Shown here: in pieces, positions 3,332 to 28,734 of the stretch
How the letters are laid out: every line of letters starts with the position of its first letter
How positions within the stretch are numbered: position 1 is the stretch's first letter
Made by a program: the position numbers and the translations under genes
The notes under the pieces: model-generated
The model's input: the letters and a program-made list of their open reading frames with translations, nothing else
Database searches by the model: none
What the model was told of the DNA's origin: nothing
Source of the DNA: Streptomyces griseoviridis
GTDB lineage: Bacteria > Actinomycetota > Actinomycetes > Streptomycetales > Streptomycetaceae
DNA: 64,000 nt
Direction: 5' to 3'
NCBI RefSeq assembly: GCF_005222485.1
Contig: NZ_CP029078.1
Coordinates: forward strand, 4,027,501 to 4,091,500

Positions 3332-3350
3332 ATCTGACGGTACGTCAGAT
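3332..3350. promoter_or_regulatory. operator palindrome, site A
   Basis: ATCTGACGGTACGTCAGAT: two perfect 8-bp arms around a 3-bp spacer. It ends 2 bp from the DoxX start and contains the probable -10 of that gene. It is the best copy of a motif that recurs seven times in this window. Confidence 0.8.
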
Positions 3351-3575
3351 GCGCTGGATTGCCGAGAGGGAAGTCGCCGTCACCGAAAATCCCGCACCCC
3401 CCGCCCGGCCAAGGGGCAGGCGCGAATACGCCCTTGGGGCCGCGGGCGCGGACGGTTCGCCGTAGGCGCGCCACCCCCGGCGCGCACATCCCCCTCCCCC
3501 AGGCGTGATCAATCCGCAACCAATTCCGGTCTTGACCGAGACCCATCAACCCGGTGCGTGATTACGCTCGCGCTC

Positions 3576-4787
3576 ATGGCCGACTCCTCACCGTGCGCAC
3601 CGACCGCCGGACCGAAGCACGCAGACCGTCCCGTATACGTCATCGGCGGCGGCCCCGGCGGACTCTCCGCGGCGTACGCGCTGCGTGCCAGGGGCGTGCG
3701 GGCCGTGGTCCTGGAGCGGACCGACGCGGTCGGCGCGTCCTGGCGCGGCCACTACGACCGGTTGCGGCTGCACACCACACGGCGGCTCTCGGCGCTGCCC
3801 GGACTGCCGATACCCCGGCGGTTCGGGCGCTGGGTGGCCCGGGACAACGTGGTGCGGTACCTGGAGAAGTACGCGGAACACCACGAGTTGGAGATCGTCA
3901 CCGGGGTGGAGGTCTCCCGGGTGGAGCGCGCGCCCGACGGCGCGGGCTGGCTGCTGCGGGCCACCGGCGGGCGGGAGCTGACCGGCTCCGCGGTCGTGGT
4001 CGCCACCGGCTTCAACCACACCCCGCGCCTGCCCGACTGGCCCGGACTCGACGGCTACACGGGCGAGTTCACGCACGCCGGGCAGTACCGGAACGCGCGG
4101 CCGTACGCGGGCCGTGACGTCCTCGTCGTCGGCGTCGGCAACACCGGCGCCGAGATCGCCGTCGACCTCGTGGAGGGCGGGGCCGCCCGGGTCAGGCTCG
4201 CGGTCCGCACCACCCCGCACATCGTGCGCCGCTCCACCCTGGGCTGGCCCGCCCAGTACACCAGCGTGCTGATCAGGCGGCTGCCGGTGCGGCTGGTCGA
4301 CCGGCTGGCGAAGCCGGTGAGCCGGATCAGCGTCCCCGACCTCACCGCGCGGGGCCTGCCCCGCCCGGACACCGGCCTCTACAGCCGGGTCAAGGAGGGC
4401 GCGGTGCCCGTCCTCGACGTCGGCCTCGTGGACGCCGTCCGCACCGGGTCCGTCGAGGTGGTGGCCGCCGTCGACGGCTTCGAGGACGGCAAGGTGCGGC
4501 TCGCCGACGGCACCCTGCTCTCGCCGGACGCGGTGATCGCGGCCACCGGGTACACGCGGGGCCTCGAAGGGCTCGTCGGCCATCTCGACGTCCTCGACGG
4601 GCGCGGCAGGCCGGTCGCCCACGGGGCGCGCACGGCGGCCCGCGCGCCGGGGTTGCACTTCACCGGGTTCACCAACCCGATCAGCGGCATGCTGCGGGAA
4701 CTGGCCCGCGACGCGGAGAAGATAGCGAAGGCGGTCGCCCGGGATCGGCGCCGGGCCGCCCGCCGCGAGGACGCGTCCGCGAAGTAG
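3576..4787 (+). CDS. FAD/NADPH-dependent flavin monooxygenase (CzcO/YUCCA-like)
   Basis: A 403-residue class B-type flavoprotein. The FAD Rossmann motif GGGPGG is at about residue 24. A second dinucleotide motif for NADPH, GVGNTG, is at about residue 187, and an ATG-like motif (AATGYTRG) follows near residue 325. The family inserts oxygen into amines, ketones or acids; the exact substrate is unknown. Start ATG 3576 is preferred; an in-frame GTG 18 bases upstream is possible. It is a single gene read away from the DoxX operon and next to acyl-CoA genes, so a role in opening or activating a catabolic substrate is plausible. Confidence 0.85.
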   Translation: MADSSPCAPTAGPKHADRPVYVIGGGPGGLSAAYALRARGVRAVVLERTDAVGASWRGHYDRLRLHTTRRLSALPGLPIPRRFGRWVARDNVVRYLEKYAEHHELEIVTGVEVSRVERAPDGAGWLLRATGGRELTGSAVVVATGFNHTPRLPDWPGLDGYTGEFTHAGQYRNARPYAGRDVLVVGVGNTGAEIAVDLVEGGAARVRLAVRTTPHIVRRSTLGWPAQYTSVLIRRLPVRLVDRLAKPVSRISVPDLTARGLPRPDTGLYSRVKEGAVPVLDVGLVDAVRTGSVEVVAAVDGFEDGKVRLADGTLLSPDAVIAATGYTRGLEGLVGHLDVLDGRGRPVAHGARTAARAPGLHFTGFTNPISGMLRELARDAEKIAKAVARDRRRAARREDASAK

Positions 4788-4815
4788 CGCCGCCGGTCGT
4801 CGGGCGACGACCTGG

Positions 4816-4838
4816 GCGGACGCCGGACGGGCGTCCGC
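4816..4838 (+). terminator. hairpin after the monooxygenase gene
   Basis: A perfect 9-bp inverted repeat (GCGGACGCC / GGCGTCCGC) with a 5-base loop, 29 bases beyond the stop. There is no T-tract, as is usual in this genus. Confidence 0.5.
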
Positions 4839-4963
4839 GGGACGGTTGACGTGCACGTGTCGTGTGCGGGCTTCTTTCGTTGGTGCGGGTGCGGTCCGGG
4901 TTGGTCCGGCCGATCTGACCTGTACGGACACCGGGGCACGGCCCCGGACGGAGGAGCAGCGCG

Positions 4964-5236
4964 ATGGGCATGACCACGTGGAGCGCGGGCGGCGCGGAAG
5001 CGGGCGGCGGTGCTCGGCGCGGTGGCCGGGGTGACACTGCTCCCGGCCGGGGCCGCGCACGCGAACGTCATCAGGGTCGGCCGTGCCACACCGTCCTGTC
5101 CCTCCAGAGGGTCACCGCCGAGCGGCCCACCGGTCCCGCCCGGTCCCGCCGGGCGGGGAGGCGGGGTGGCGCGGGCCCGGTCGGCCTGCTCAACTTTGCG
5201 TGCACAGCAGTTCCTGACGGCTTGTCAGTTCAGTAA
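4964..5236 (+). pseudogene. remnant of a small exported protein (frameshifted)
   Basis: ATG 4964 has a strong Shine-Dalgarno (GGAGGAG, 9-10 bases upstream) and begins MGMTTWSA. The next residues make no sense in that frame. Skipping one G near 4988 gives a textbook Sec signal peptide: ARKRAAVLGAVAG, then VTLLPAGAAHA before a likely cleavage site. After that the second frame turns to Pro-rich nonsense, while the first frame closes with LLNFACTAVPDG before TAA at 5236. This suggests a decayed secreted peptide gene, or two sequencing errors. The family is not recognised. Confidence 0.35.
5212..5230. promoter_or_regulatory. operator palindrome, site B1 (degenerate)
   Basis: TCCTGACGGCTTGTCAGTT, an imperfect copy of the ATCTGACGnnnCGTCAGAT motif (one arm base differs at the core). 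It lies 24 bp, centre to centre, from site B2, a spacing that suits two dimers on one DNA face. Confidence 0.55.
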
Positions 5237-5254
5237 TCTGACAGAGCGTCAGGT
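5236..5254. promoter_or_regulatory. operator palindrome, site B2
   Basis: ATCTGACAGAGCGTCAGGT, 29 bp upstream of the acyl-CoA synthetase start. Thirteen of the 16 arm bases match the consensus. Confidence 0.65.
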
Positions 5255-5283
5255 AATGGCTGTCAACAGGAGCGGGCGGACCG

Positions 5284-7509
5284 ATGCTTGGATCAACCCA
5301 CGGCACCCTCACCACCGACTCCCGCCGGGCCCGGGTCATCGCCTGTGGCGAGCAACCCGGGCCCGCCGTCCACGGCAGGCCCGCCGACGTCGGCGATCTC
5401 GACGTCAGCGGCCGGCCCCTCTACGCCGACGTGCCCGACCTCGACCGGTTCTTCCGGCCGGAGTCGGTCGCCGTCGTCGGCGCGTCGGACGCCGAGGGGC
5501 GCCCGAACACCGGCATCACCCGGCAGTTGGTGGAGTGGGCGGGACGGGTCGGCGCCCGGCTGCACCCGGTGCACCCGACCCGGCCGTCCGTCTTCGGCAT
5601 CCCGTGCCTGCCGTCCGTCGCCGATCTGCCCGAACAGGTCGACCTGGCGGTCCTGTTGGTGTCCGACCCGGTTCCGGTGATCGAGCGGCTCGCCGAGGCC
5701 AAGGTACGGTTCGCGGTCGTCTTCGCCTCCGGCTTCGCGGAGACCGGCGCCGACGGCCTCGCGGCCCAGGACCGGCTGACCGCCGCCGCCCGGCGCACCG
5801 GCATCAGGCTGCTGGGGCCCAACACCAACCTGAACGCCTTCGAGCGCTTCCGCGACGACCTCGAAGGACCGGCGATCGCGCTGATCACCCAGTCAGGGCA
5901 CCAGGGCCGCCCGGTCTTCGCCCTCCAGGAACTCGGTGTCCGCCTCTCGCACTGGGCGCCCACCGGCAACGAGGCCGACCTGGAGAGCGCCGACTTCCTC
6001 TCCTACTTCGCCGAGCGGCCCGAGGTGGGCGCCGTCGCCTGCTACCTGGAGGGCCTCAAGGACGGCCGGTCGTTCCTGCTCGCCGCCGACCGGGCGGCCA
6101 GGCGCGGGGTCCCGGTGGTCGCCGTCAAGGTCGGCCGCACCGAGACCGGCGCCCGCACCGCCGCCTCCCACACCGGCAAACTGACCGGCGCCGACACCGT
6201 GGTGGACGCGGCCATGCGGCAGTTCGGCGTGATCCGGGTGGACGCACTCGACGAACTCCAGGACACGGCAGCCCTGTTGGCGCGGGCCAGGCCGCCGCGC
6301 GCCGACGGCGTCGTCGTCTACTCCATATCCGGCGGCACCGGCGCCCACTTCGCCGACCTCGCCACCGAGGCGGGCCTCACCCTGCCCGCCCTCTCCGCCG
6401 CCAAGCAGGCGGAACTGCACCAGTGGATACCCGGCTACCTGAACGTCGCCAACCCGGTCGACAACGGCGGCCACCCGGTCGGCGACCACCGCGGCCGGAA
6501 GATCATCGACGCGATCCTCGACGACCCGTCGGTCGGCGTGCTGATCTGCCCGGTCACCGGGCCCTTCCCGCCGCTCAGCGACCGTCTGGTGCGGGACCTG
6601 GTGGACGCGGCCGAGCGGACCGACAAGCTGGTGTGCGTGGTGTGGGGCTCCCCGGTCGGCACCGAACCTGCCTACCGCGAGGTCCTGTTGGGCTCCTCCC
6701 GGGTGGCGACCTTCCGCACGGTCGGCAACTGCATCACCGCCGTCCGCGCCTACCTCGCCCACCACCGCTTCACGGCCGGCTACCGCTCGCCCTTCGACGA
6801 GGCCCCGCGCACCCCCTCGCCCTCCTTCCGCAAGGCCCGCGCCCTGATGCGCCCCGGGCAGCAGCTGAGCGAGCACGCGGCCAAGCAACTGCTGCGCGCG
6901 TACGGCATCCGGGTGCCCCGCGAGCAGTTGGTGACCAGCGCGGCGGCGGCCGTCCGGGCGGCCGGTCTGGTCGGCTACCCGGTGGTGATGAAGGCGTCCG
7001 GCGCGCGGATCGCCCACAAGACCGAGCTGGGCCTGGTCAGGATCGGCCTCACCTCCGCGAGCCAGGTCCGCGACGCCTACCGGGAGTTGACGGACACCGC
7101 CCGCTTCGAGGGCGTCGTGCTCGACGGCGTGCTGGTCTGCCAGATGGTCGAGCGGGGCGTCGAGATGGTCGTCGGGGTCACCCACGACGAGCTGTTCGGG
7201 CCGACGGTGACGGTCGGGCTCGGCGGTGTCCTGGTCGAGGTGTTGCGGGACGTCGCGGTGCGGGTACCGCCGTTCGGCGAGGACGAGGCCAGGAACCTCC
7301 TCGGCGATCTGCGCGGACGGGCGCTGCTCGACGGCGTCAGGGGCCGCCCGCCCGCCGACGTCGAGGCCCTCGTGGAGGTGGTCCTGCGGGTGCAGCGGAT
7401 GGCCCTCGAACTCGGCTCGGACCTGGCCGAGTTGGACATCAACCCGCTGGTGGTGCTGGAGCGCGGGCAGGGCGCGGTGGCGCTGGACGCGCTGGCGGTG
7501 TGCCGATGA
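5284..7509 (+). CDS. ADP-forming acyl-CoA synthetase (acetate-CoA ligase family)
   Basis: A 741-residue fused alpha/beta enzyme that makes an acyl-CoA from a free acid, CoA and ATP with release of ADP. An N-terminal CoA-binding domain (PESVAVVGASDAEGRPN, about residues 58-75) is followed by the succinyl-CoA-ligase-like domains with the probable phospho-His motif ASHTGKLTGAD (about residue 298). A C-terminal ATP-grasp domain spans about residues 515-740 (VVMKASGARIAHKTELG). The ribosome site AGGAG lies upstream of ATG 5284. It overlaps the hydratase gene by ATGA, so both are made together under sites B1/B2. Confidence 0.9.
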   Translation: MLGSTHGTLTTDSRRARVIACGEQPGPAVHGRPADVGDLDVSGRPLYADVPDLDRFFRPESVAVVGASDAEGRPNTGITRQLVEWAGRVGARLHPVHPTRPSVFGIPCLPSVADLPEQVDLAVLLVSDPVPVIERLAEAKVRFAVVFASGFAETGADGLAAQDRLTAAARRTGIRLLGPNTNLNAFERFRDDLEGPAIALITQSGHQGRPVFALQELGVRLSHWAPTGNEADLESADFLSYFAERPEVGAVACYLEGLKDGRSFLLAADRAARRGVPVVAVKVGRTETGARTAASHTGKLTGADTVVDAAMRQFGVIRVDALDELQDTAALLARARPPRADGVVVYSISGGTGAHFADLATEAGLTLPALSAAKQAELHQWIPGYLNVANPVDNGGHPVGDHRGRKIIDAILDDPSVGVLICPVTGPFPPLSDRLVRDLVDAAERTDKLVCVVWGSPVGTEPAYREVLLGSSRVATFRTVGNCITAVRAYLAHHRFTAGYRSPFDEAPRTPSPSFRKARALMRPGQQLSEHAAKQLLRAYGIRVPREQLVTSAAAAVRAAGLVGYPVVMKASGARIAHKTELGLVRIGLTSASQVRDAYRELTDTARFEGVVLDGVLVCQMVERGVEMVVGVTHDELFGPTVTVGLGGVLVEVLRDVAVRVPPFGEDEARNLLGDLRGRALLDGVRGRPPADVEALVEVVLRVQRMALELGSDLAELDINPLVVLERGQGAVALDALAVCR

Positions 7510-8387
7510 GGATCCCGGTCCGCCATCAGGTGAGCGACCAGGTCGCGACCGTCGTCCTGGACCGCCCCGAGGCCCTCAACGCGCTCACCCCCGGCGCCCG
7601 GGACCGCCTGATCGAGCTGTTCACCGACTTCTCGGCCGACCCCGAGGTCAGAGCGGTGGTCCTGACGGGCACCGGACGGGGCTTCTGCGCGGGCGCGGAC
7701 CTGCGCGGCGGGACGGGGGCGGGGACACCTGGGACGCCTGGGACACCTGGGACGCCTGGGACACCTGGGACGCCTGGGACGCCTGGGACGCCTGGCACAC
7801 CTGATACCCCGCCCCCCGAGCGCGTCGTCGGGGACGTCTCGCGGGTGCTCAGGCGTGGTGCGCAGCGGCTGATCGGTGCCGTTCTGGACTGCGAGAAGCC
7901 GGTGATCGCGGCCGTGAACGGCACGGCGGCGGGCCTCGGCGCGCATCTGGCGTTCGCGTGCGATCTCGTGCTGGCCGCCGAATCGGCCCGGTTCATCGAG
8001 GTGTTCGTCCGCCGGGGCCTGGTCCCGGACGCGGGCGGCGCCTATCTGCTGCCGCGGCTGATCGGTCCGCGGCGCGCGAAGGAGCTGATGTTCTTCGGCG
8101 ACGCGCTGAGCGCGGCGGACGCGGAGCGCCTCGGCCTGGTCAACCGGGTCGTCGCGGACGACGAGTTGGCGGCGACGGCCGGACAGTGGGCGGCCCGGCT
8201 GGCGAGCGGTCCGACCCGCGCCCTGGCCCTGACCAAGCAGTTGGTCGACTCCTCCCTGGAGTCGGACCGCGCGGCGGCGTTCGCGGCGGAGGCGGCGGCG
8301 CAGGAGCTGAACATGGCGACGCGGGACGCCCAGGAGGGCATCCGGTGCTTCGTGACCCGTGAGACCCCTCGGTTCAGGGGCCGTTGA
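7506..8387 (+). CDS. enoyl-CoA hydratase/isomerase (crotonase) with Gly-Thr-Pro repeat
   Basis: A 293-residue crotonase acting on 2-enoyl-CoA. The first oxyanion-hole segment is GRGFCAGADLRGG (about residues 57-69) and the second is NGTAAGLGAHLAF. The usual catalytic Glu region reads GLVPDAGGAYLLPRL, with Asp as in PaaG-type enzymes. Between the two halves there is a run of nine Gly-Thr-Pro units coded by 9-bp DNA repeats. ATG 7506 overlaps the stop of the synthetase gene. The last residues are Arg-rich. The enzyme probably hydrates the CoA ester made by the upstream synthetase. Confidence 0.88.
   Translation: MRIPVRHQVSDQVATVVLDRPEALNALTPGARDRLIELFTDFSADPEVRAVVLTGTGRGFCAGADLRGGTGAGTPGTPGTPGTPGTPGTPGTPGTPGTPDTPPPERVVGDVSRVLRRGAQRLIGAVLDCEKPVIAAVNGTAAGLGAHLAFACDLVLAAESARFIEVFVRRGLVPDAGGAYLLPRLIGPRRAKELMFFGDALSAADAERLGLVNRVVADDELAATAGQWAARLASGPTRALALTKQLVDSSLESDRAAAFAAEAAAQELNMATRDAQEGIRCFVTRETPRFRGR
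7723..7803 (+). repeat. 9-bp coding minisatellite
   Basis: About nine tandem units close to GGGAC(A/G)CCT code for (Gly-Thr-Pro)n inside the crotonase, just after the first oxyanion-hole loop. Units alternate ACA and ACG at Thr codons, so the array has partly diverged. The reading frame is kept throughout. Confidence 0.9.
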
Positions 8388-8446: not shown

Positions 8447-8465
8447 ATCTGACGTACCGTCAGTT
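8447..8465. promoter_or_regulatory. operator palindrome, site C
   Basis: ATCTGACGTACCGTCAGTT. It contains TACCGT, a plausible -10, 7 bases before a probable transcription start near 8468. It lies 14 bp before the flavin reductase start. Confidence 0.75.
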
Positions 8466-8479: not shown

Positions 8480-9067
8480 ATGGGACAAGCGGGAACGGCC
8501 GAAGCGGCAGTGCGCTATCTCAGGTCGGCCCCCGGGGCGGCCCGCCGGGCGACCGGTCTGCGCTGCGTCCGGCAGGACGAGCGGGCCCCGGTCGACCGCA
8601 CGGAGTTCCGCCGCGTCCTCGGCCATTTCGCGTCAGGGGTCACGGTGATCACGGCGCCGCCTGCGGGCCAGGACCCCGGTCCCGCGGGCTTCGCCTGCCA
8701 GTCCTTCACGTCGCTCTCCCTCGACCCGCCGCTGATCGCGTTCATGGTGGGCCGCACCTCGGCGACCTGGCCCCGGATCGCCCGCGCCGGCGTCTTCTGC
8801 GTCAACGTCCTCGCGGCGGACCAGGGCCCGCTGTGCCGGGCGTTCGCGGCGAGCGGCACGGACAAGTTCCTGGGCGTCGCCCACACCCCGGCCCCGCGCT
8901 CCGGGTCACCGCTGCTCACGGGCGTCCTCGCCTGGATCGACTGCACGGTCCACGCGGTGCACACCGGCGGCGACCACCTGATCGTGGTGGGCCGGGTGGA
9001 CGCGCTGGGCGCCGAGGGGGAGACGGCGGAGCCGCTGCTGTTCCACCGGGGACAGTTCCTGAGCTGA
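8480..9067 (+). CDS. flavin reductase domain protein (HpaC/HsaB-like)
   Basis: A 195-residue member of the flavin reductase (FMN split-barrel) family, which supplies reduced flavin to a partner monooxygenase. The conserved N-terminal region FRRVLGHFASGVTVIT (about residues 42-57) and the loop FACQSFTSLSLDPPLIAF are seen, with the late GDHLIVVGRV motif. ATG 8480 is chosen over GTG 8477 because GAAGG sits 4 bases before it. A three-codon ORF (ATG 8469) lies in the short leader. No two-component oxygenase is adjacent. It shares the operator motif with the acyl-CoA genes. Confidence 0.85.
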   Translation: MGQAGTAEAAVRYLRSAPGAARRATGLRCVRQDERAPVDRTEFRRVLGHFASGVTVITAPPAGQDPGPAGFACQSFTSLSLDPPLIAFMVGRTSATWPRIARAGVFCVNVLAADQGPLCRAFAASGTDKFLGVAHTPAPRSGSPLLTGVLAWIDCTVHAVHTGGDHLIVVGRVDALGAEGETAEPLLFHRGQFLS

Positions 9068-9340: not shown

Positions 9341-10912
9341 ATGCCCGACATCCACCACCCGGGACGGCGGTCGGTCCTCGCCGCGGGCGCCGCCGTCGGC
9401 GCGTCCTGGCTGCTGTCCGGCTGTACGGGGGCCTCGGCCGCCCCCGTCCTGCCGACCACCGCGCTCCGGGGCGCCCCCGACCGCGGCGGCGTCCTGCGCG
9501 TCGCCAGGCCGCCCGCCTCCGAGGCCGAGACCCTGGACCCGGCCAGTTCCCTGTCCGCGTACGAGTACCTGGGCGCCCTCTACAACCGGCTGGTCCGGGT
9601 CGGCCCGGACGGCGAACTGGCCCCCGACCTGGCGGAGAGCTGGGAGCCGGACGCGCGGGCCCGCACCTGGACCTTCCGGCTGCGCGCGGGCGTCACCTTC
9701 CACGACGGGCGGCCCTTCACCTCCGCCGACGCCGCCTACACCCTGCGCCACATCCTCGACAAGGCCACCGGCTCCCCGCAGGCCGGCGTCCTCGCCCCGC
9801 TCCTCGACCCGGCCGCGCTGCGCACCCCGGACGCCCACACCCTCGTCGTCCCGCTCAAGAGCCCGAACGCCGAGTTCCCGAGCCTGCTCACGCACTACAA
9901 CTGCTACGTCGTCCCGGACGGCAGCGCCCGCTCCATCGGCCGCACCGGCATCGGCACGGGACCCTTCAAGCTGGAGTCCTTCGCCCCCGCGGGCCCCGGC
10001 CGGGTCACCGCGCACGCCGACCACTTCGCGGGCCGCCCGGTCCTCGACGCCATCGACTTCTACTCGGTCGCCGACATGTCCGCCCGGTCGAACGCCCTGC
10101 TCGCCGGGCAGGTCCACCTCCTCTCGCAGACCAACCTGGACTTCGCGACCGCCCGCGTGGTCGCCGCCTCCGACCGGGCCACCGTCGCCCGCGTCAAGGA
10201 CGCCCAGTGGTACGTGCTGCCGATGCTCACCACCGAGAAGCCCTTCACCGACGTACGGGTGCGGCAGGCGATGAAGCTCGCCTACGACCCCGAGCACGTC
10301 GTGAAGGTCGCCCTCCAGGGCGCGGGCACCGCGGGCTGGGACAACCCGGTGCCGCCGTCCGACCCCGCGCACCTGGCCGGGCACCCCGAGCACGACCCGG
10401 AGAAGGCCAGGTACCTGCTCAGGCGGGCCGGGCACGAGGGGCTCGCCGTCGACCTGTACACCTCGTCCTACGATCCGCTGTTCACGCCGATGGCACTCGC
10501 CTACCAGGACTCGGCCAGGCGGGCCGGCATCCGGGTCAGGGTCAGGACCGCGGCGGCCGACTCGTACTACACGCAGATCTGGATGAAGAAGCCGCTGATG
10601 GCCACCTACTGGTTCACCGGCAGACCCGTCGACCAGCTCTTCACGCAGATCTTCCGCGGCGGCTCCTCCTACAACGAGACCGCCTGGAGGGACCAGGACT
10701 TCGACGCCGTCCTCGACCGCGCCCGCGCCGAGACCGACGACCGCAGACGCGCCGAACTGTACGGCGAGGCACAGACGTTGGTGATCGAGCGGGGCGGCGC
10801 GATGACCCCGATGTTCGCCGACCGGCTGGTCGGGATCTCCCGCCGGGTGCGCGGATACGCCGAGCACGGCTTCGAGTTCGACTACCTCGGCATCGGCCTG
10901 AAGGGAGCCTGA
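9341..10912 (+). CDS. ABC transporter solute-binding lipoprotein (family 5, peptide type)
   Basis: A 523-residue extracytoplasmic binding protein that would deliver an oligopeptide-like or similar solute to the permeases. The N-terminus carries a twin-arginine motif (GRRSVLA) and a lipobox ending in SGC at about residue 27, so it is exported folded and lipid-anchored. The SBP_bac_5 core is evident in LAPDLAESWEPDARARTWTFRLRAG-type sequence and FHDGRPFTSADAAYTL. ATG 9341 follows GAGAAGGA by 10 bases. It is the first gene of a six-gene overlapping operon. Confidence 0.92.
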   Translation: MPDIHHPGRRSVLAAGAAVGASWLLSGCTGASAAPVLPTTALRGAPDRGGVLRVARPPASEAETLDPASSLSAYEYLGALYNRLVRVGPDGELAPDLAESWEPDARARTWTFRLRAGVTFHDGRPFTSADAAYTLRHILDKATGSPQAGVLAPLLDPAALRTPDAHTLVVPLKSPNAEFPSLLTHYNCYVVPDGSARSIGRTGIGTGPFKLESFAPAGPGRVTAHADHFAGRPVLDAIDFYSVADMSARSNALLAGQVHLLSQTNLDFATARVVAASDRATVARVKDAQWYVLPMLTTEKPFTDVRVRQAMKLAYDPEHVVKVALQGAGTAGWDNPVPPSDPAHLAGHPEHDPEKARYLLRRAGHEGLAVDLYTSSYDPLFTPMALAYQDSARRAGIRVRVRTAAADSYYTQIWMKKPLMATYWFTGRPVDQLFTQIFRGGSSYNETAWRDQDFDAVLDRARAETDDRRRAELYGEAQTLVIERGGAMTPMFADRLVGISRRVRGYAEHGFEFDYLGIGLKGA

Positions 10913-10914
10913 CC

Positions 10915-11868
10915 GTGCTCACGTTCCTCGCCCGGCGCCTCGCCGCCGCCGTCGGCACGCTCCTGCTGTCGTCCGTGCTCGTCTTCCTCGCCGTCCAGGC
11001 CCTGCCAGGCGACGTCGCCACCCAGATCCTCGGCAAGGACGCCACCCCGGACGCGGTCGCCGCCCTGCGCTCCACCCTGGGGCTCGACCAGCCCGCCTGG
11101 GAGCGGTACCTGCACTGGATCGGCGGCGCGCTGCACGGCGACTTCGGGACCTCGCTGGTCTCGGGTGACGCCGTCGGCGGCGACGTCGCGGCCCATCTCG
11201 GCAACTCGGCGCTGATCGCCGGCGTCACCGTGCTGTTCGCGGTGACCGGTTCGATCGTGCTCGGCGTGCTGGCCGGCCTCTACCGCGACCGCTGGCCCGA
11301 CCACCTCGTCTCGACGGTCAGCCTGGTCGGCATGAGCGTCCCCGAGTTCGTGGTCGCCACCGTCCTGGTGCTCTGCTTCTCCGTCGCCCTGCCGTGGTTC
11401 CCCGCGGTCGTCCTGTACGGTCCCGACGCGAGCGCCGGCCAACTCCTGCCCGCCGTCTGGCTCCCCGCGCTCGCGCTGGCGATCGTGATGGCCGCGTACA
11501 TCGTCCGGATGACCCGCACCTCGGTCATCGACGTGATGGCGAGCGAGTACGTCACCACCGCCCGGCTCAAGGGCCTGCCGACCTGGCGGGTCGTCACCCG
11601 GCACGCCCTGCCGAGCGCCCTGCTGCCCACCCTGCACGTGATCGCGCTCAACGTGGCGTGGCTGGTCGGCGGGGTCGCCGTCGTCGAGAACGTCTTCAAC
11701 TACCCGGGCGTCGGCAAGCTGATGCTCTCCTCCGTGCAGAACCGCGACCTGCCCGTCATCCAGGCCATCGCCCTGATCAGCGCGGTCGTCTACGTCGTCT
11801 GCAACCTCGCCGCCGACCTCGGCGCCCTGGCCCTCAACCCCAAGCTCCGTACGCGCGGGAGGACTTGA
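10915..11868 (+). CDS. peptide ABC transporter permease (DppB type)
   Basis: A 317-residue inner-membrane permease with an N-terminal helix, a periplasmic loop and five further helices, the usual DppB layout. The EAA loop that contacts the ATPase is seen as EYVTTARLKGLPTWRVVTRH. GTG 10915 lies 2 bases after the stop of the binding-protein gene. Its stop shares TGATG with the next permease. It forms the channel with the DppC-type partner. Confidence 0.92.
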   Translation: MLTFLARRLAAAVGTLLLSSVLVFLAVQALPGDVATQILGKDATPDAVAALRSTLGLDQPAWERYLHWIGGALHGDFGTSLVSGDAVGGDVAAHLGNSALIAGVTVLFAVTGSIVLGVLAGLYRDRWPDHLVSTVSLVGMSVPEFVVATVLVLCFSVALPWFPAVVLYGPDASAGQLLPAVWLPALALAIVMAAYIVRMTRTSVIDVMASEYVTTARLKGLPTWRVVTRHALPSALLPTLHVIALNVAWLVGGVAVVENVFNYPGVGKLMLSSVQNRDLPVIQAIALISAVVYVVCNLAADLGALALNPKLRTRGRT

Positions 11869-16716: not shown

Positions 16717-17396
16717 CGGCCGCCGAGCGCCCGCCGTCCGCGGCACCGGCCGGGTCGGGGCGCGCGCCGCGGCGCGCGGTCACCGCCGCCGCACGCACCC
16801 GGCAGCCCACCGAGGTGCGGCGCAGGCTGATCGTGGAGGCCGCCGTCCCGCTGATCGGCGAGCGCGGCTACGCGTCCGTGGGGGTGCGGGACGTGGCGGC
16901 CGCCGCCGGGGTGTCGGTCGGGACGGTCACCTACCACTTCGGCAGCGTCCAGGAGATCCTGTCCGAGGCGATGGTCCTGCACATCGAGCGCTACTACACG
17001 GCGCTCAGCGAGGCCGCCGACCGGGCGACGAGCGGCGCCGAGGCGCTGCGGCTGCTCGTCGACGCGCTGTTCACCGAGGACACCGACCGGCACTGGCGGA
17101 TGTGGTTCGACTACTGGAACGCGGGCGAGCAGGGCACCGACGAGGCGTTCGCGCGCGGTCAGGCGCACCGCTACGAGGCGTGGCACGGGCAGATCCGCGC
17201 GCTGGCCGAGCGGGCGGCGGCCGACGGCCGGCGGGCCGCCGTCGACCTGGACGGCTTCACCATCAGGTTCGCGGCCCTCGCGGACGGCCTGGCCCTGCAA
17301 CGTCTGCGCCAGGCGCCCCCGCTGACCATGGAGGCGGCCCGCCGCCACCTCAACCACCTGATCGAGACGGAGCTGGGCCCGGCGCCCTCCGCCTGA
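16713..17396 (+). CDS. TetR family regulator, probable autoregulator of the transport operon
   Basis: A 227-residue regulator with a Ser/Pro/Arg-rich N-terminal arm of about 35 residues, then a TetR HTH (about residues 36-85; recognition helix region SVGTVTYHFGSVQEIL). The C-terminal ligand domain is helical. ATG 16713 overlaps the hydrolase stop by four bases, so regulator level follows operon expression. It probably represses the promoter at 9232-9260 and is released by the imported compound or its hydrolysis product; this is inference from gene order. Confidence 0.88.
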   Translation: MTAAERPPSAAPAGSGRAPRRAVTAAARTRQPTEVRRRLIVEAAVPLIGERGYASVGVRDVAAAAGVSVGTVTYHFGSVQEILSEAMVLHIERYYTALSEAADRATSGAEALRLLVDALFTEDTDRHWRMWFDYWNAGEQGTDEAFARGQAHRYEAWHGQIRALAERAAADGRRAAVDLDGFTIRFAALADGLALQRLRQAPPLTMEAARRHLNHLIETELGPAPSA

Positions 17397-20874: not shown

Positions 20875-22025
20875 CACACGGCCCCCTTCGGCTCCCTCGG
20901 CAGCCCGAGCACCCGCTCGGCGATGATCGTGCGCTGGATCTGGTCCGAGCCGCCGTAGACGGTGTCGGCCCGGGAGAACAGGAACAGGTGCTGCGCCGCG
21001 TCGAGCGCGTACGGCGTCCCGGGCGTCCAGTCCGCGGGGCCGACCCCGGCCGCCGCGCCCCGCACCTGCACGGCCAGCTCCCCGAGCCGCTGGTGCCAGC
21101 CCGCCCACAGCAGCTTGGCGACACTGGGCGCCCCCGCGTCACCCGAACCCCCCAGTGTCCGAAGGGCGTTCCAGCGCATGGCCCGCAACTCGGCCCAGAG
21201 CGTGACCAGTCGGTCCCGCAGCACCGGATCGTCGGCGGCGCCCGAGGCGACGGCGGCCCGCACCACCCGCCCCAACTCCTCGGCGAACCCGATCTGCTGG
21301 GCCAGGGTGGAGACGCCGCGCTCGAAGCCGAGCAGGCTCATCGCGACCTTCCAGCCGTCGCCGGCGCCGCCCACGACATGCTCGGCGCGGGCCACCGCCC
21401 CGTCGAAGAAGACCTCGTTGAAGTCGCTGGTCCCGGTCAGCTGCCTGATCGGCCGCACCTCGATCAGCTCCGGCTGGTCCATCGGCACCAGCAGGAACGT
21501 CAGGCCGTGGTGGCGCCGGGAGTCGGGGTCGGTGCGCGCCAGCACGAAGCACCAGTCGGCCTCGTGGGCGAGGGAGGTCCAGATCTTCTGCCCGGTGATC
21601 CGGTAGTGGCCGTCGCCCTGCCGCTCCGCCCGGGTCCGCACCCCCGCGAGGTCGGACCCCGCGCCGGGTTCGCTGTAGCCCTGGCACCACCACTCCTCAC
21701 CCGCGGCGACGGCGGGCAGGAAGCGCCGCTTCTGGGCGTCGCTGCCGTGCGCGAGGAGCGTCGGCGCGAGCAGGTTCTCGCCGATGTGCCCGGACCGCGC
21801 GGGGGCGCCGGAGCGCGCGTACTCCTCGGCCCAGACGACCTGTTCGGTGAGGGAGGCGGTGCGGTTGCCGTACCCGGCCTCCCCCCAGCCGAGGCCGATC
21901 CAGCCGTCCCGGCCGAGGACCCGCTCCCAGCCGCGCCGGTCGCCCGCACCGGACACGTGCGCCGCGAGCCACTCCCGCGAGCGGGCCCTGAACTCCTCGT
22001 CCCCGGCGGCGAATCCAAAGTCCAC
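20874..22025 (-). CDS. acyl-CoA dehydrogenase
   Basis: A 383-residue flavoenzyme that introduces the alpha-beta double bond in an acyl-CoA. The FAD-binding segment WCQGYSEPGAGSDLAG is near residue 120. The Glu usually found in the YEGT motif is absent (VYGGSDQIQRTI), but a Glu in GFERGVST matches the base position used by isovaleryl-CoA-type enzymes. GTG 22025 follows GGAAGG by about 8 bases. It is similar to the large subunits of steroid side-chain heteromeric dehydrogenases, but has no small partner next to it. Confidence 0.9.
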   Translation of the reverse strand: MDFGFAAGDEEFRARSREWLAAHVSGAGDRRGWERVLGRDGWIGLGWGEAGYGNRTASLTEQVVWAEEYARSGAPARSGHIGENLLAPTLLAHGSDAQKRRFLPAVAAGEEWWCQGYSEPGAGSDLAGVRTRAERQGDGHYRITGQKIWTSLAHEADWCFVLARTDPDSRRHHGLTFLLVPMDQPELIEVRPIRQLTGTSDFNEVFFDGAVARAEHVVGGAGDGWKVAMSLLGFERGVSTLAQQIGFAEELGRVVRAAVASGAADDPVLRDRLVTLWAELRAMRWNALRTLGGSGDAGAPSVAKLLWAGWHQRLGELAVQVRGAAAGVGPADWTPGTPYALDAAQHLFLFSRADTVYGGSDQIQRTIIAERVLGLPREPKGAV

Positions 22026-22093
22026 GAGGTTCCCTTCCTGGCGCCGACGTACCGGACCGAGCGGCGGGGCGTGCCGGTCGCGCGCCCCGCCCG

Positions 22094-23005
22094 TCATGTG
22101 TTCGGCCGCTCCCCCGCCCGCGCGGCCCGCCCCATCTCCGCGACCCGCTCCAGCAGCGGCATCGGGTCCACGCCCACGGTCCCCGGCAGGAACGCCGCGA
22201 TCCGCTCGGGTGTCCAGGCCCCCTCCGCGTAGGCGGCCCGCAACTCCCTCGGCTGCGCCCACACGGCGAGTTTGGGTCCGGCGACGGTGTACACCTGCCC
22301 GGTGATGCCCTGCTCCCTGGCCTGCTCGGACAGCAGGTAGACGACGAGCGCGGCGACGTCCGCCGGCTCGCCGATCTCCGTCAGCTCCATGGGCACCCCG
22401 GCCGACATCCGGGTCCTGGCGACCGGCGCCACCGCGTTGGCGCTCACCCCGTAGGTGTGCAGTCCGAGGGCGGCGCTGCGCACCAGCGAGATGATCCCGC
22501 CCTTGGCGGCGCTGTAGTTGGCCTGCGACACCGACCCCTGGTGGTTGCCGCTGGTGAAGCCGATGAGGGTGCCCGAGCGCTGGGCGCGCATCACGGCGGA
22601 GGCGGCCCTGAAGACGGTGAAGGTGCCCTTGAGGTGGGTCGCGACCACCGGGTCCCACTCCTGCTCGGACATGTTGAACAGCATCCGCTCGCGCAGGATC
22701 CCGGCGACGCAGACGACGCCGTCGAGCCGCCCGTAGGACGCCAGCGCGGTGTCCACGAGGCGCTGCCCGCCCGCCATGGTGGAGATGTCGTCGGCGACGG
22801 CGACGGCCTCGCCGCCGGCCGCCGTGATCTCCTCGACGACCTGGTCGGCGATGTCGCTCGTGGGGTCGGCGCCGGCCACCGAGACGCCGTAGTCGTTGAC
22901 GACGACGCGGGCGCCCTCGTCGGCCGCGGCGAGCGCCACCGCCCGGCCGATGCCGCGGCCCGCGCCCGTCACGGCGACCACCTTGCCTGCCAAGAAGTTC
23001 CCCAC
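22094..23005 (-). CDS. SDR family oxidoreductase (3-hydroxyacyl-CoA dehydrogenase-like)
   Basis: A 303-residue short-chain dehydrogenase. The NAD motif is TGAGRGIG at about residue 14, followed by VVVNDYG, as in peroxisomal multifunctional protein / HSD17B4-type 3-hydroxyacyl-CoA dehydrogenases. The catalytic Ser and YxxxK are in TSGNHQGSVSQANYSAAK. The C-terminal 60 residues extend beyond the usual fold. GTG 23005 has a GGAAGGGG ribosome site. It heads the operon SDR-ACAD-ADH and shares an operator region with the divergent cyclase gene. Confidence 0.88.
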   Translation of the reverse strand: MGNFLAGKVVAVTGAGRGIGRAVALAAADEGARVVVNDYGVSVAGADPTSDIADQVVEEITAAGGEAVAVADDISTMAGGQRLVDTALASYGRLDGVVCVAGILRERMLFNMSEQEWDPVVATHLKGTFTVFRAASAVMRAQRSGTLIGFTSGNHQGSVSQANYSAAKGGIISLVRSAALGLHTYGVSANAVAPVARTRMSAGVPMELTEIGEPADVAALVVYLLSEQAREQGITGQVYTVAGPKLAVWAQPRELRAAYAEGAWTPERIAAFLPGTVGVDPMPLLERVAEMGRAARAGERPNT

Positions 23006-23024: not shown

Positions 23025-23043
23025 TTCTGACGGTCCGTTAGAT
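23025..23043. promoter_or_regulatory. operator palindrome, site D
   Basis: TTCTGACGGTCCGTTAGAT lies between the divergent SDR and cyclase genes, 20 bp from the SDR start and 45 bp from the cyclase start, so one site could control both directions. Confidence 0.7.
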
Positions 23044-23087: not shown

Positions 23088-24014
23088 ATGTCGCTGCCCG
23101 CCGAATTCCACGAGATCGCCCGGCGCGTGAACAACTGGGGCCGCTGGGGAGAAGACGACGAGATCGGCACCCTCAACCTGATCACCGACGCCGTGGTGCG
23201 CGAGGCGGCGGCCACCGTCCGCACCGGCCGCCGGATCCCGCTCGCGCTGCCGCTGAAGCAGGACGGCGTGCAGAGCGGGCTGATCCCGGGGCGGGTCAAT
23301 CCGCTGCACGCGATGGTGCAGATCAACCAGGAGATCTTCGGCCCCGGCACGGTCGCGTGCAGCGACGACGCGGTGACCATGGGCCTCCAGGCGGGCACCC
23401 ACTGGGACGCGCTGCCCCATGTCTCGCACTCCGGGCGCCTGTACAACGGCCGGCCGGCCGACTCCGTGACCGCGCACGGCGGCGCCGCCTTCAGCTCGAT
23501 CGCCACCGCCCGGCACGTCGTCTCGCGCGGGGTGCTGCTCGACGTGGCGCGGGCACACGGCACCGACCGGCTGCCGGGCGGGCACGCGGTGACCCCGGAG
23601 GATCTGACGGCGGCGGAGGAGCTGGCCGGGACCCGGGTGCGGGCCGGGGACGTGGTGCTGGTGCGGACCGGTCAGGTGGGCGTGTACCTGGCCGGGGACC
23701 GGGAGGGGTACGCGTATCCGTCGCCGGGGCTCTCGGTGCGGACGCCCGAGTGGTTCCACGCCCGGGACGTGGCCGCCGTCGCCAACGACACCCTGACCTT
23801 CGAGATCTTCCCGCCGGAGATCGAGGACCTGTGGCTGCCGGTGCACGCCCTCGACCTGGTGGAGATGGGAATGCTCCAGGGTCAGAACTGGAATCTCGAA
23901 GAGTTGTCCACAGCCTGTGGAGAAAGTCGGCGCTACAGCTTCCTGCTGTCGGCGATGCCCGAGCCGTTCGCCGGGGCGACCGGCACCCCGGTGGCGCCGG
24001 TGGCCATCCTCTGA
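23088..24014 (+). CDS. cyclase family protein (kynurenine formamidase-like hydrolase)
   Basis: A 308-residue metal-dependent hydrolase. The family signature appears as GTHWDALPHVSH (about residues 102-113), giving the His/Asp/His metal ligands of kynurenine formamidase and isatin hydrolase relatives. These open amide, lactam or lactone bonds. ATG 23088 is preceded by GGGGAGAG. It is divergent from the SDR operon and shares site D, so it probably acts on a ring-opened or lactone intermediate of the same pathway; the substrate is not known. Confidence 0.85.
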   Translation: MSLPAEFHEIARRVNNWGRWGEDDEIGTLNLITDAVVREAAATVRTGRRIPLALPLKQDGVQSGLIPGRVNPLHAMVQINQEIFGPGTVACSDDAVTMGLQAGTHWDALPHVSHSGRLYNGRPADSVTAHGGAAFSSIATARHVVSRGVLLDVARAHGTDRLPGGHAVTPEDLTAAEELAGTRVRAGDVVLVRTGQVGVYLAGDREGYAYPSPGLSVRTPEWFHARDVAAVANDTLTFEIFPPEIEDLWLPVHALDLVEMGMLQGQNWNLEELSTACGESRRYSFLLSAMPEPFAGATGTPVAPVAIL

Positions 24015-24056
24015 CGGCGGCAGGCGCGCTCCCCCGAAAGAACGGAACGGCACGGT

Positions 24057-25399: not shown

Positions 25400-26263
25400 T
25401 CAGGCGACGAGATCCGCGGCGAGTGCCTCCTCGGCCGCCGCTCCGCCCCCGCCGCGCGCGGCCCGCACCCACGCCCGCTTCAGATGCAGATGCACCTCGG
25501 ACTCCCAGGTGAAGCCCATGCCGCCGTGCACCTGGAGGCAGTCGCGGGCGCCGTCGACGGCGGCCTCGTCGGCGAGCAGCCTGGCCGCGGCGATGTCGGC
25601 GCCCGCGCCGGTGACGGCGGCCGCGTAGACGGCGGCGCGGGCGGTCTCGGCCCGCACCAGGAGCCCCGCGCACAGGTGCTGGACGGCCTGGAAGGCGCCG
25701 ATGGGCCGTCCGAACTGCTCACGGCTCCGGGCGTGTTGCACGGCGAGATCGCACACACGGACGGCGGTGCCCAGTTGTTCGGCCGCGGTGAGCAGCACGG
25801 CGACGGGATCGACGGGGGCCGGGTGGGCCACCCGGTGCAGGGGCGTGAGCGGATCGAGGGACCGGACGGCGACGGCGCCCGCCGCGCCCGGCCGCACCAC
25901 GTCGGCCGCCGCCAGCCACTCCACCGTCCGCCCGTCGGCCGCCGCGACGACGGTCTCGCCGCTCGCCGCGCCCGGTACCTTTCCTGCGGCCCGGTGGGTG
26001 GCGATCAACGGGCCGGTGAGCAGGGCCCGCCCGGCCTCCTCGAACACCAACACGGCCTCGGGCAACCCCAGTCCGACCCCGCCGTCGCGTTCCGGCAGGC
26101 AGAGGGCGAAGAGTCCGGCGTCCCCGAGCGCCTTCCACAGCGCCCGGTCGAGGCCGGGCCTGGCGACGGCCGCGCGCCGGGTTGCCGCGTCGAACCGCCG
26201 GTCGAGCAGGTCGCGGGTGGCGCGCCGCAAGGCCCGCTGGTCCTCGGTGAGTTGGAAGCGCAT
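25400..26263 (-). CDS. small acyl-CoA dehydrogenase subunit
   Basis: A 287-residue acyl-CoA dehydrogenase homologue, roughly 90 residues shorter than normal. The N-terminal helical domain (FQLTEDQRALRRATRDLLDRR) and C-terminal helical domain (GRPIGAFQAVQHLCAG, then QVHGGMGFTWESEVHLH) are present, but the middle beta domain is much reduced. Known heteromeric dehydrogenases of steroid side-chain degradation pair such a subunit with a full-length one. The full-length gene is immediately upstream with one base between, so an alpha2beta2 enzyme is likely. The gene is last in the operon. Confidence 0.87.
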   Translation of the reverse strand: MRFQLTEDQRALRRATRDLLDRRFDAATRRAAVARPGLDRALWKALGDAGLFALCLPERDGGVGLGLPEAVLVFEEAGRALLTGPLIATHRAAGKVPGAASGETVVAAADGRTVEWLAAADVVRPGAAGAVAVRSLDPLTPLHRVAHPAPVDPVAVLLTAAEQLGTAVRVCDLAVQHARSREQFGRPIGAFQAVQHLCAGLLVRAETARAAVYAAAVTGAGADIAAARLLADEAAVDGARDCLQVHGGMGFTWESEVHLHLKRAWVRAARGGGGAAAEEALAADLVA

Positions 26264-26264
26264 G

Positions 26265-27398
26265 TCATCTCCCTCTGGGCAGCCCGAGCATCCGTTCGGC
26301 GACGATGGTGCGCTGGATCTGCGAGGTGCCCGCGGCGATCGTGTAGGAGAGGGACGAGAGCCGGTCGAGGACCCAGGGGCTGTCGAGGTCGAGGGCGTCG
26401 GGGCCGAGGACGTCGGCTGCGGTGTCGTAGAGGTCCTGACGGGCGTGCGAGTAGCGGAGCTTGAAGACCGAGCCGCCGACGCCGGGGACGCCGCCGGTGG
26501 CCGCCGCCTCGCTGACGTTCCACTGGGTGAGCCGCCACAGCGCCCGGAACTCGGCGTTGAGCCTGCCGAGTCGGCGCCGCACCACGGGGTCGTCCCAGCG
26601 GCCGTTCTCCCGTGCCGTCGCGGCCAGTTGGCGCAGCACCCGGCGGCAGGCGACCACCTCGCCGACGAAGGCGGTGCCGCGTTCGAAGGAGAGCGTCACC
26701 ATCGTCACCCGCCAGCCGTCGTTCTCGGCGCCGACCCGGTTGCCGACCGGGATCGGCACGTCGTCGAGGAACACCTCGGCGAACTCGGTGGAACCCGCGA
26801 GGGTGCGCAGCGGCCGTACGGTGACGCCCGGCGCGTCCATCGGCATCGCGAGCCAGCTGATGCCCCGGTGCCGGGGGGCGTCGGGGTCGGTGCGCACCAA
26901 CAGCTCGCACCAGTCGGCGACTTCGGCGTGCGAGGTCCAGATCTTGGAGCCGCTGACGAGGTAGTGGTCGCCGTCGCGGCGGGCGCGGGTGCGCAGGGCG
27001 GCGAGGTCGGAGCCCGCGCCGGGTTCGCTGAACCCCTGGCACCAGACCTCCTCGCCGCGCAGGATCGGCGGCAGCCACCGCTGTCGCTGCGCCTCGGTGC
27101 CCTCGGCGGCGATGGTGGGTCCTGCGTGCAGCAGCCCGACGAAGTTGGCGCCGACGTAGGGCGCCCCGGCCGCCTCGGTCTCCTCCAGGAAGATCAGCCG
27201 GGTGGTGGGCGAGGCGTCCCAGTGCAGTTCGCCGTAGCCGGCGTCGTACAGGGTGCGCTGCCAGCGGAGGTCGTGGGCGCGGCGGGCGGGCCAGTCGGCG
27301 GGGGCGGGCGGCGGGGGCAGCGTGGGCAGTGTCCTGGCGAGCCAGGCGCGCAGCCGGGCCCTGAACTCGCGCTGCTCGGGCGGGTCGTCCAGGTCCAT
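26265..27398 (-). CDS. acyl-CoA dehydrogenase, large subunit
   Basis: A 377-residue full-length acyl-CoA dehydrogenase. FAD-binding segment WCQGFSEPGAGSDLAAL is near residue 118, and the C-terminal motif is YTIAAGTSQIQRTIVAERMLGLP. As in its paralogue at 20874, the YEGT Glu is replaced, while LSFERGTAF keeps a Glu at the alternative base position. ATG 27398 shares a base with the amidohydrolase stop, and its stop is one base from the small-subunit start. It probably forms the catalytic heteromer with that subunit. Confidence 0.9.
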   Translation of the reverse strand: MDLDDPPEQREFRARLRAWLARTLPTLPPPPAPADWPARRAHDLRWQRTLYDAGYGELHWDASPTTRLIFLEETEAAGAPYVGANFVGLLHAGPTIAAEGTEAQRQRWLPPILRGEEVWCQGFSEPGAGSDLAALRTRARRDGDHYLVSGSKIWTSHAEVADWCELLVRTDPDAPRHRGISWLAMPMDAPGVTVRPLRTLAGSTEFAEVFLDDVPIPVGNRVGAENDGWRVTMVTLSFERGTAFVGEVVACRRVLRQLAATARENGRWDDPVVRRRLGRLNAEFRALWRLTQWNVSEAAATGGVPGVGGSVFKLRYSHARQDLYDTAADVLGPDALDLDSPWVLDRLSSLSYTIAAGTSQIQRTIVAERMLGLPRGR

Positions 27399-28597
27399 CA
27401 GCGGTACCTGGGGTGGTCCAGTCGGAGCAGCCGGATGGCGTTGCCCCGCATCAGCTTGAAGACGGTCTCGTCGTCGAGGCCCTTCACATGGTCGAGGGCG
27501 ACCTCCTTGGTGTGCGGGAAGGTCGAGTCGACGTGCGGGTAGTCGGTCTCGAAGGTGGCGTTGTCGCGCCCGACGGCGTCGAGGGAGGCCACGCCGTGCT
27601 TGTCGCGGAAGAAGCAGCAGAAGATCTGCCGGTAGTAGTACGAGGACGGCGGCTCGGGGACGGTGTCGCGCACCCCGCCCCAGGCGCGGTGCTCCTCCCA
27701 CACGTCGTCGGCGCGTTCGAGGGCGTACGGGATCCAGCCCATCTGGCCTTCGGAGTAGGCCAGTCGGAGGCGGGGGAAGCGCACCAGGACGCCGCTGAAG
27801 AGGAAGTCCATCATCGACGCCATCGCGTTGTTGAAGGAGAGCGCGGCCTGCACGGCGGGCGGTGCGTCGGGGGAGGCGGCGGGCATCTGGGAGCTGCTGC
27901 CGATGTGCATGTTGACCGAGGTGCCGGTCTCCTGGCAGGCGGCGAAGAACGGGTCCCAGTAGCCGCTGTGGATGGACGGCAGGCCGAGGTGGGTGGGGAT
28001 CTCGGAGAACGTCACGGCCCGTACCCCGCGAGCGGCGTTGCGGTGGATCTCGGCGACGGCCAGGCCGATGTCCCAGAGCGGGATCAGGCAGAGCGGGATG
28101 AGGCGGCCGTCGCTGTCCCCGCACCACTCCTCGACCATCCAGTCGTTGTAGGCGCGCACGCAGGCGAGCGCGACCTCCTTGTCGTGGGCCTCGGCGAAGG
28201 TCTGTCCGCAGAAGCGCGGGAAGGTGGGGAAGCACAGGGAGCCCTCGACGTGGTTGAGGTCCATGTCCCTGAGCCGTTCCTTCGGGTCCCAGCAGCCGCG
28301 CCGCATCTCGGCCCGGGTGATGCCCTCCAGGGTCATGTCGTCCCGGTCGAAGCCGACGGCGGCGATGTTGCGCTTGTACGGGAACTGGAGGTCCTCGTAG
28401 ATCCACCAGTCGGTGGGCGGGCCCTCGGGGTCCATGGTGATCCGGTACTTGCCCGCGACGTAGGCGAGTTCGCCGATGCCCGCGGTGAGCGGGCGGGGGC
28501 CGCGGTCGCGGTACTTGGCCGGGAGCCAGGTCTCGAAGAGGTGCGGGGGTTCGATCACGTGGTCGTCGACGCTGATGATGCGGGGCAGTTCGGTCAT
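27398..28597 (-). CDS. amidohydrolase family protein (ACMSD superfamily)
   Basis: A 399-residue TIM-barrel protein of the amidohydrolase_2 / aminocarboxymuconate-semialdehyde decarboxylase superfamily. The N-terminal ISVDDHVIEPPHLFETWLP is typical of the actinobacterial group found with acyl-CoA dehydrogenases, and a late DYPHVDSTFPHT motif supplies the Asp. It may hydrolyse or decarboxylate a CoA-linked or ring-cleavage intermediate. ATG 28597 has AGGGAG 8 bases upstream; GTG 28606 is an alternative. It heads the operon with the dehydrogenase pair, 30 bp downstream of operator site E. Confidence 0.85.
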   Translation of the reverse strand: MTELPRIISVDDHVIEPPHLFETWLPAKYRDRGPRPLTAGIGELAYVAGKYRITMDPEGPPTDWWIYEDLQFPYKRNIAAVGFDRDDMTLEGITRAEMRRGCWDPKERLRDMDLNHVEGSLCFPTFPRFCGQTFAEAHDKEVALACVRAYNDWMVEEWCGDSDGRLIPLCLIPLWDIGLAVAEIHRNAARGVRAVTFSEIPTHLGLPSIHSGYWDPFFAACQETGTSVNMHIGSSSQMPAASPDAPPAVQAALSFNNAMASMMDFLFSGVLVRFPRLRLAYSEGQMGWIPYALERADDVWEEHRAWGGVRDTVPEPPSSYYYRQIFCCFFRDKHGVASLDAVGRDNATFETDYPHVDSTFPHTKEVALDHVKGLDDETVFKLMRGNAIRLLRLDHPRYR

Positions 28598-28626
28598 GGT
28601 CCCCACTCCCTGTGCTGCGGGCCCAT

Positions 28627-28645
28627 ATCTGATGGACCGTCAGAT
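28627..28645. promoter_or_regulatory. operator palindrome, site E
   Basis: ATCTGATGGACCGTCAGAT, upstream of the minus-strand amidohydrolase operon. One arm base differs from the consensus. Confidence 0.75.
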
Positions 28646-28715
28646 GTACCGTCGCCAGCAGGCTAGTGCCCCACCCCTGGACCGACAAGGCGCCCGGCTC
28701 TACGCTCTGCGCACG

Positions 28716-28734
28716 ATCTGACGGAACGTCAGCC
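28716..28734. promoter_or_regulatory. operator palindrome, site F
   Basis: ATCTGACGGAACGTCAGCC, 16 bp upstream of the acyl-CoA ligase start. It is 89 bp from site E, so the divergent pair of operons has one operator each. Confidence 0.75.

Follow-up and report, generated by a model that had tools for sequence, protein, structure and literature searches.

Palindromic sites and their likely target genes

The window analysed here is a 64,000-nucleotide stretch of the Streptomyces griseoviridis genome (C1:4,027,501-4,091,500, where C1 stands for NZ_CP029078.1, the one contig of this 8.96-Mb genome). It encodes several operons of acyl-CoA catabolism preceded by copies of a 19-bp palindrome, ATCTGACGnnnCGTCAGAT, and our analysis suggests that these palindromes are quite probably the operators of a TetR_C_38-type repressor encoded at C1:4,019,990-4,020,625, 7.5 kb left of the window. 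We computed the placement, conservation and linkage of the sites and their co-occurrence with this protein. Positions given without C1 are those of the window.

The leftmost site in the window (3332..3350, no mismatch) lies 2 bp before a minus-strand pair encoding a DoxX-like protein (2877..3329, a call below the Pfam cut-off) and a DUF35/ChsH2-like Zn-ribbon OB protein (2467..2880), and it is kept before the same gene in relatives. The plus strand then carries the genes for an FMO-like flavoprotein (3576..4787, a possible member of the regulon), an ADP-forming acyl-CoA synthetase (5284..7509), an enoyl-CoA hydratase/isomerase (7506..8387) and a flavin reductase (8480..9067). The synthetase gene is preceded by a double site, of which the downstream half (5236..5254) has two mismatches and the weak upstream half (5212..5230, TCCTGACGGCTTGTCAGTT) has four, with a score of 12.8 under a matrix built from 16 sites. 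A double site with a step of 24-25 bp stands before the same synthetase gene in the relatives L095, L097, L099 and L102, and in Actinomadura the two halves are 38 bp apart. The flavin reductase gene has a one-mismatch site at 8447..8465.

The second block starts with a minus-strand operon of a short-chain dehydrogenase/reductase (SDR, 22094..23005), an acyl-CoA dehydrogenase (20874..22097) and a zinc-type alcohol dehydrogenase (19825..20877). A site with two mismatches (23025..23043), also seen in L104 and L106, separates it from a divergent PF04199 cyclase-family gene (23088..24014, plus strand); the GTG start at 23005 and the ATG start at 23088 were set by the sequence and the relatives. Further right, a one-mismatch site (28627..28645) precedes a minus-strand operon that encodes an amidohydrolase_2 family enzyme (27398..28597, of the same Pfam family as the C1:4003369 protein) and the large and small partners of an acyl-CoA dehydrogenase (26265..27398, best PDB match 6wy9 and third 4x28; 25400..26263, with an IpdE2 model match below cut-off). 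The last site (28716..28734, two mismatches) precedes an AMP-forming acyl-CoA ligase gene on the plus strand (28751..30265). The gene assignments that the first-pass annotation had made downstream of these seven sites are correct, and its central claim that one operator joins dispersed acyl-CoA catabolic operons is supported.

The palindrome is real and located at promoters. Allowing up to three mismatches, the window has 7 matches versus 0.18 expected, and none of 100 shuffles reached 7; the whole genome has 86 matches versus 2 for a reversed-pattern control, and 144 versus 20 for the 15-bp core with at most one mismatch. The sites had been described as seven near-identical copies, which holds for the six that lie within three mismatches and is too strong for the one at 5212 with its four. 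No further copy had been noticed in the window; the search gives one more match, with three mismatches, at 19812, inside the 3' part of an AraC-type gene (18803-19903). We examined the bias to promoters in 24 cluster loci, the majority of which were selected for holding a site, with genes called by a simple script. These loci hold 71 sites with a score of 18 or more. A called start is no farther than 100 bp away for 67 of them, and one is inside a called gene, the called coding share of the sequence being about 85%.

Between the two blocks lies a plus-strand peptide operon (9341..17396) that does not belong to the regulon, as had been noted earlier. It has no site scoring 8 or more and is absent from the same place in L101 and L102; it is probably an insertion that interrupts the catabolic cluster. 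The gene closing it encodes a BetI-type TetR (16713..17396, plus strand), which the first reading had passed over though it is inside the range of the finding. Because its peptide operon is absent from that place in these two relatives, we consider this TetR an unlikely regulator of the sites.

A candidate regulator and its distribution

Three TetR genes lie near the sites, at 16713, at 63393 and at C1:4,019,990. A TetR-family protein is the likely binder. The cognate regulator was expected not to be adjacent to the listed genes, in line with the position of our candidate. Translation of this 211-215 aa protein probably begins 12 bp before the called start, at a conserved ATG (4,019,978). It has TetR_N and TetR_C_38 (PF19352) domains above cut-off, with 246.9 bits (cut-off 23.9) and 26.8 (cut-off 24), and the predicted structure of P0002, 99% identical to it, is an all-helical TetR fold with a ligand domain (pLDDT 91.9). 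Among 20 relatives' loci, seven likewise have its gene within the cluster (L095, L096, L097, L101, L102, L105, which is cut, and L113), and each of 101 Streptomyces genomes has one match to it. All of 12 diverse members compared share the helix region GTSxATFYQYF, with x being P in nine, A in two and S in one.

The number of sites in a genome goes with the presence of TetR_C_38. We sampled 246 class-level Actinomycetes genomes, called a genome a carrier if it had a match at E 1e-25, and counted sites within one mismatch of TCTGACGnnnCGTCAGA. The 44 carriers have a median of 12.5 sites versus 0 in the other genomes. At least four sites are present in 34 of the 44 carriers (17 of the 22 Streptomyces among them) versus 2 of the 202 non-carriers, giving an area under the curve (AUC) of 0.95. 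This test keeps Streptomyces and family f13 (5 genomes); leaving both out gave an AUC of 0.94 (n=17). The association also holds within single families, with p=0.005 in f18 (7 versus 13 genomes) and p=0.013 in f14 (7 versus 5).

The same sample bears on the TetR at 63393..63998 (minus strand), which the first-pass annotation had put forward as one candidate. It belongs to the right family, its gene is inside the window at a distance of 35 kb from the closest site, and the two Streptomyces without a homologue of it (G247 and G328) have one site each. Streptomyces cannot separate the two proteins, both of which are present in 20 of 22 genomes. Outside Streptomyces, however, sites do not track its homologues: only 3 of 41 carriers (G112, G134 and G203) have four or more, and all three also carry TetR_C_38. 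Moreover, three Streptomyces that have it (G088, G227 and G337) hold one site each, and the 20 kb to its right has no site scoring above 11.1. We therefore reject it as the cognate repressor, a role that we now find very improbable.

Linkage outside Streptomyces points to TetR_C_38 as well. In Frankiales/Frankiaceae metagenome-assembled genomes (MAGs; family f14) and in Yinghuangia, its gene is next to one for an SDR, from which an echA20-ipdA-ipdB-ipdC-like operon diverges, with an intervening site. Here IpdA matches PDB 6co6 (3e-95) and the hydratase and SDR models are above cut-off, while IpdB, IpdC and the gene names are our presumed assignments by position. In all four Actinomadura loci examined, sites overlap the TetR_C_38 start, doubled sites precede the acyl-CoA synthetase orthologue (66%) and a site precedes the amidohydrolase orthologue (73-74%). 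In an Acidimicrobiales MAG, presumably of another class, TetR_C_38 lies in one run of genes with homologues of the luciferase-like and SDR proteins, and a site precedes the amidohydrolase homologue (63%). Over 26 non-Streptomyces loci, a site scoring at least 14 lies within 100 bp upstream of 15 of the 26 TetR_C_38 genes versus 42 of 365 other genes (p=1e-7).

Some other conserved local regulator could bind the sites instead, namely the AraC/DJ-1-type protein at 18803 or a Lrp-like protein (a label resting on the sequence start only) encoded beside the TetR in relatives, and both genes are indeed conserved near the cluster in several relatives. We give this idea very little credence, since it is TetR_C_38 that adjoins the sites in Frankiales, Actinomadura and Yinghuangia, where other regulators were not systematically searched, and since a two-arm palindrome this short, with a 3-bp spacer, suits a TetR dimer.

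We propose the following mechanism for TetR_C_38. A dimer would read CTGACGnnnCGTCAG through the near-invariant helix region GTSPATFYQYF and block promoters, in most cases no more than 100 bp ahead of the target genes. The repressor would release the DNA once its EthR-like ligand domain takes up an intermediate, perhaps a CoA thioester or a carboxylic acid, and the scattered catabolic operons would be switched on together. Binding, and repression rather than activation, are what membership in the TetR family would predict, and a CoA-ester ligand is suggested by the nature of the target genes.

Extent and conservation of the regulon

The chain of sites extends beyond the window, which takes in no more than its right part. 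Strong sites span 76 kb (C1:3,980,271-4,056,234), the first of them 47 kb left of the window, and those on the left side are at C1:3980271, 4001580, 4004612, 4009991 and 4024505. The targets there are an SDR gene; a luciferase-like oxidoreductase gene; a group of amidohydrolase, luciferase-like (F420 family, above cut-off) and SDR genes; a FadD3-family ligase gene (762 bits, cut-off 657) divergent from thiolase-DUF35-hydratase genes; and an acyl-CoA dehydrogenase gene divergent from a thiolase gene.

With at most two mismatches the whole genome has 24 matches, 11 in the main cluster and 13 elsewhere, and five of these 13 satellites stand ahead of plausible targets. They precede a TIGR03151-type flavoenzyme (below cut-off) and a ligase (C1:650746), a lipid-transfer thiolase above cut-off (1647990), with a small gene upstream of it that starts at a distance of 251 bp, a ligase with CasI/FadD17-type matches below cut-off (3493282), an operon including a lipid-transfer thiolase above cut-off (4493304) and a luciferase-like gene (6243941). 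A three-mismatch site at 2799979 is 18 bp before a CYP125 gene (PDB match 3e-152), the divergent neighbour of which encodes a FadA5-type thiolase (686 bits, cut-off 515). A luciferase-like gene of the Rv3520c type (2781688) and one for an aldehyde dehydrogenase (2789939) also have weaker sites before them. Separately, two overlapping sites 15 bp apart were found at a called gene start in L024:10001-10034 (C1:2568774-2568807), where the gene encodes a 545-aa protein with, as judged by eye, a twin-arginine-like N-terminus. We had also suspected, from their spacing, MCE transporter genes near sites or the TetR in relatives; the ten proteins have no Pfam MCE match, and seven of them have no Pfam family at all at E 1e-4.

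The exact palindrome is present at 40 places in 31 of 101 Streptomyces genomes, the source genome counted, versus 0 for the control. It stands beside an orthologue of a cluster target gene in 22 of 29 relatives' loci. Of the 40 exact sites, 33 (two in the source genome) are on the contig of the TetR_C_38 orthologue, and 25 of these 33 are within 60 kb of it, a count that leaves out the 7 sites on contigs without this TetR.

One might suppose that more than one TetR paralogue recognises an operator of this type, each accounting for part of the sites. The genome has at least 146 TetR_N domains, the sites differ from one another, and some satellites are not obviously connected with the cluster. 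This explanation is nonetheless unlikely given that site number tracks TetR_C_38 alone across families and that the site is kept at the same orthologous genes in the 22 loci just mentioned.

A natural deletion shows that the sites follow the catabolic genes. Five Streptomyces genomes (G088, G227, G247, G328 and G337, with loci L295-L299) have one site each and keep TetR_C_38 along with many neighbours of the cluster. In the 20 kb around their TetR gene, the only stretch examined, the dehydrogenase/thiolase pair, the DoxX-DUF35 and synthetase-hydratase genes, the SDR operon, and the amidohydrolase and ligase genes are missing; L295 keeps the flavin reductase gene together with a site. The catabolic genes are also missing beside the TetR in L300, a short contig of 10.8 kb from G293, which was left out of this group owing to its four sites.

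Several observations weigh against TetR_C_38 as the regulator. Two genomes without a match to it, G244 and G246, hold 15 and 5 sites (they are 68% and 93% complete), and G275 has a weak match and no site. The f13 genomes (G112, G134, G151, G166 and G181) hold 51-177 near-sites, some of them intragenic (L183), and only one of their five TetR_C_38 genes has a site upstream; an exact 19-bp search of two of them found two sites in G181 and none in G112, which leaves many near-sites unaccounted for. Over the non-Streptomyces loci, 11 of the 26 TetR_C_38 genes have no upstream site. The Streptomyces gene itself has only a degenerate half-like element at its start, AGCTGACGGCATGACAGG, scoring 6-9. 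In an alignment of 46 Streptomyces loci and 3 others, all but one of the 46 have this operator-like element over the start codon, and the roughly 60 bp before the gene are nearly unchanged across Streptomyces; given only this degenerate element, autoregulation in Streptomyces is doubtful. Seven of the 29 relatives' exact sites are away from cluster orthologues (L073, L077, which is intragenic, L084, L086, L088, L091 and L092), with distant luciferase-like or thiolase neighbours in L084, L091 and L092. For eight of the 13 satellites there is no plausible target, or the site falls within or across genes (C1:2568774, 3524863, 5307945, 5477862, 5870717, 5950754, 6634572 and 8882100). Finally, TetR_C_38 is present in 101 of 101 Streptomyces, even where the neighbouring catabolic genes are gone, and hence it may have another role.

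Likely substrate and relation to known repressors

The regulon had been called simply an acyl-CoA regulon. We narrow this to a likely repression of the acyl-CoA catabolism of steroid- or terpenoid-like acids, the substrate being putative. The targets encode acyl-CoA ligases, acyl-CoA dehydrogenase pairs, Ltp/DUF35 aldolase-type pairs (the Ltp-like thiolase matching PDB 6ok1 at 6e-98), luciferase-type oxidoreductases, amidohydrolase-fold enzymes and CYP125.

It is conceivable, at somewhat less than even likelihood, that the same regulon serves not steroids but another alicyclic or branched acid (diterpenoid, cyclohexane-type or polyketide-derived), which would be compatible with the assignment to TetR_C_38. 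The amidohydrolase at C1:4003369 has DitZ as its best PDB match (7e-60), followed by PtmU3, both of them proteins related to diterpenoids, and the top model for the ligase at 28751 is a cyclohexanecarboxylate-CoA ligase, far below its cut-off. A 2016 survey (PMC4810484) reports that 55 of 57 Streptomyces genomes lack a steroid pathway, which speaks against a steroid reading; the core substrate therefore need not be a steroid and may be another polycyclic acid. On the other side, the CYP125, FadA5, Ltp and ipd-type targets indicate steroids.

The TetR_C_38 regulon resembles that of KstR, the cholesterol repressor of actinobacteria: this TetR protein likewise has numerous palindromic operators, which control genes of the acyl-CoA dehydrogenase, Ltp/DUF35, FadA5 and CYP125 types. 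The KstR motif, however, is TnnAACnnGTTnnA, unlike this palindrome, and at E 1e-3 TetR_C_38 has no match to NF033703, the equivalog model for KstR. Another TetR of the source genome (L290:17561-18205, C1:2787560-2788204) is KstR-like, with 199 bits, below the cut-off of 280. It has a KstR-like element upstream and lies about 11 kb from CYP125/FadA5, which suggests a dual control of these two genes; judged by eye, the stretch between them also holds a near-KstR-like element.

The Frankiales MAGs and Yinghuangia, with TetR_C_38 beside an SDR gene and the echA20-ipdABC-like operon, resemble the arrangement in mycobacteria of KstR2, the repressor of C/D-ring breakdown. The KstR2 motif differs, and the echA20-ipdABC-like operon of the source genome (L191:9825-13203, C1:2434825-2438203) has no such site and a different TetR nearby. 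None of the 20 PDB sequence matches of TetR_C_38 is labelled KstR2, going by labels only. KstR3 of Mycolicibacterium neoaurum is a TetR over an aldolase-DUF35 operon of sterol side-chain breakdown (PMC10398937, compared by its description) and is similar in controlling such genes. It differs in acting on a local operon, with seven genes changed in the mutant, and the word motif does not occur in the main text of that paper. A Nocardioides palindrome, TCCCGGT[C/G]ACCGGGA (PMC7593942), differs from ours.

Among the matches listed from the open-access literature, none described this motif or its regulator earlier. The candidate repressor, encoded just outside the window, is widely conserved and apparently undescribed; TetR catabolic regulons as such are known, and what is new is one of unusual breadth. 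We speculate, as an evenly balanced proposal, that steroid/terpenoid-type catabolism has, in addition to KstR and KstR2, a third and ancient repressor in TetR_C_38, found from Acidimicrobiales to Streptomyces. In Frankiales and Yinghuangia a non-orthologous replacement would have brought the ipd (C/D-ring) operon under its control, and in Streptomyces it would govern a large side-chain-type regulon including CYP125, with a further core role keeping it in every genome seen. Our analysis names a candidate regulator, its operator and a set of targets in a part of Streptomyces catabolism that is large and conserved yet poorly annotated, and suggests that steroid-type breakdown in actinobacteria is controlled by more regulators than KstR and KstR2.

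The fold closest to TetR_C_38 is that of EthR, with about 20% identity and a sequence match over the DNA-binding part only; the operator and target of EthR differ. The orthologue of the FMO-like gene at 3576-4787 is kept near the TetR in four of the five one-site Streptomyces stretches, a neighbourhood that resembles the EthR-EthA pairing.

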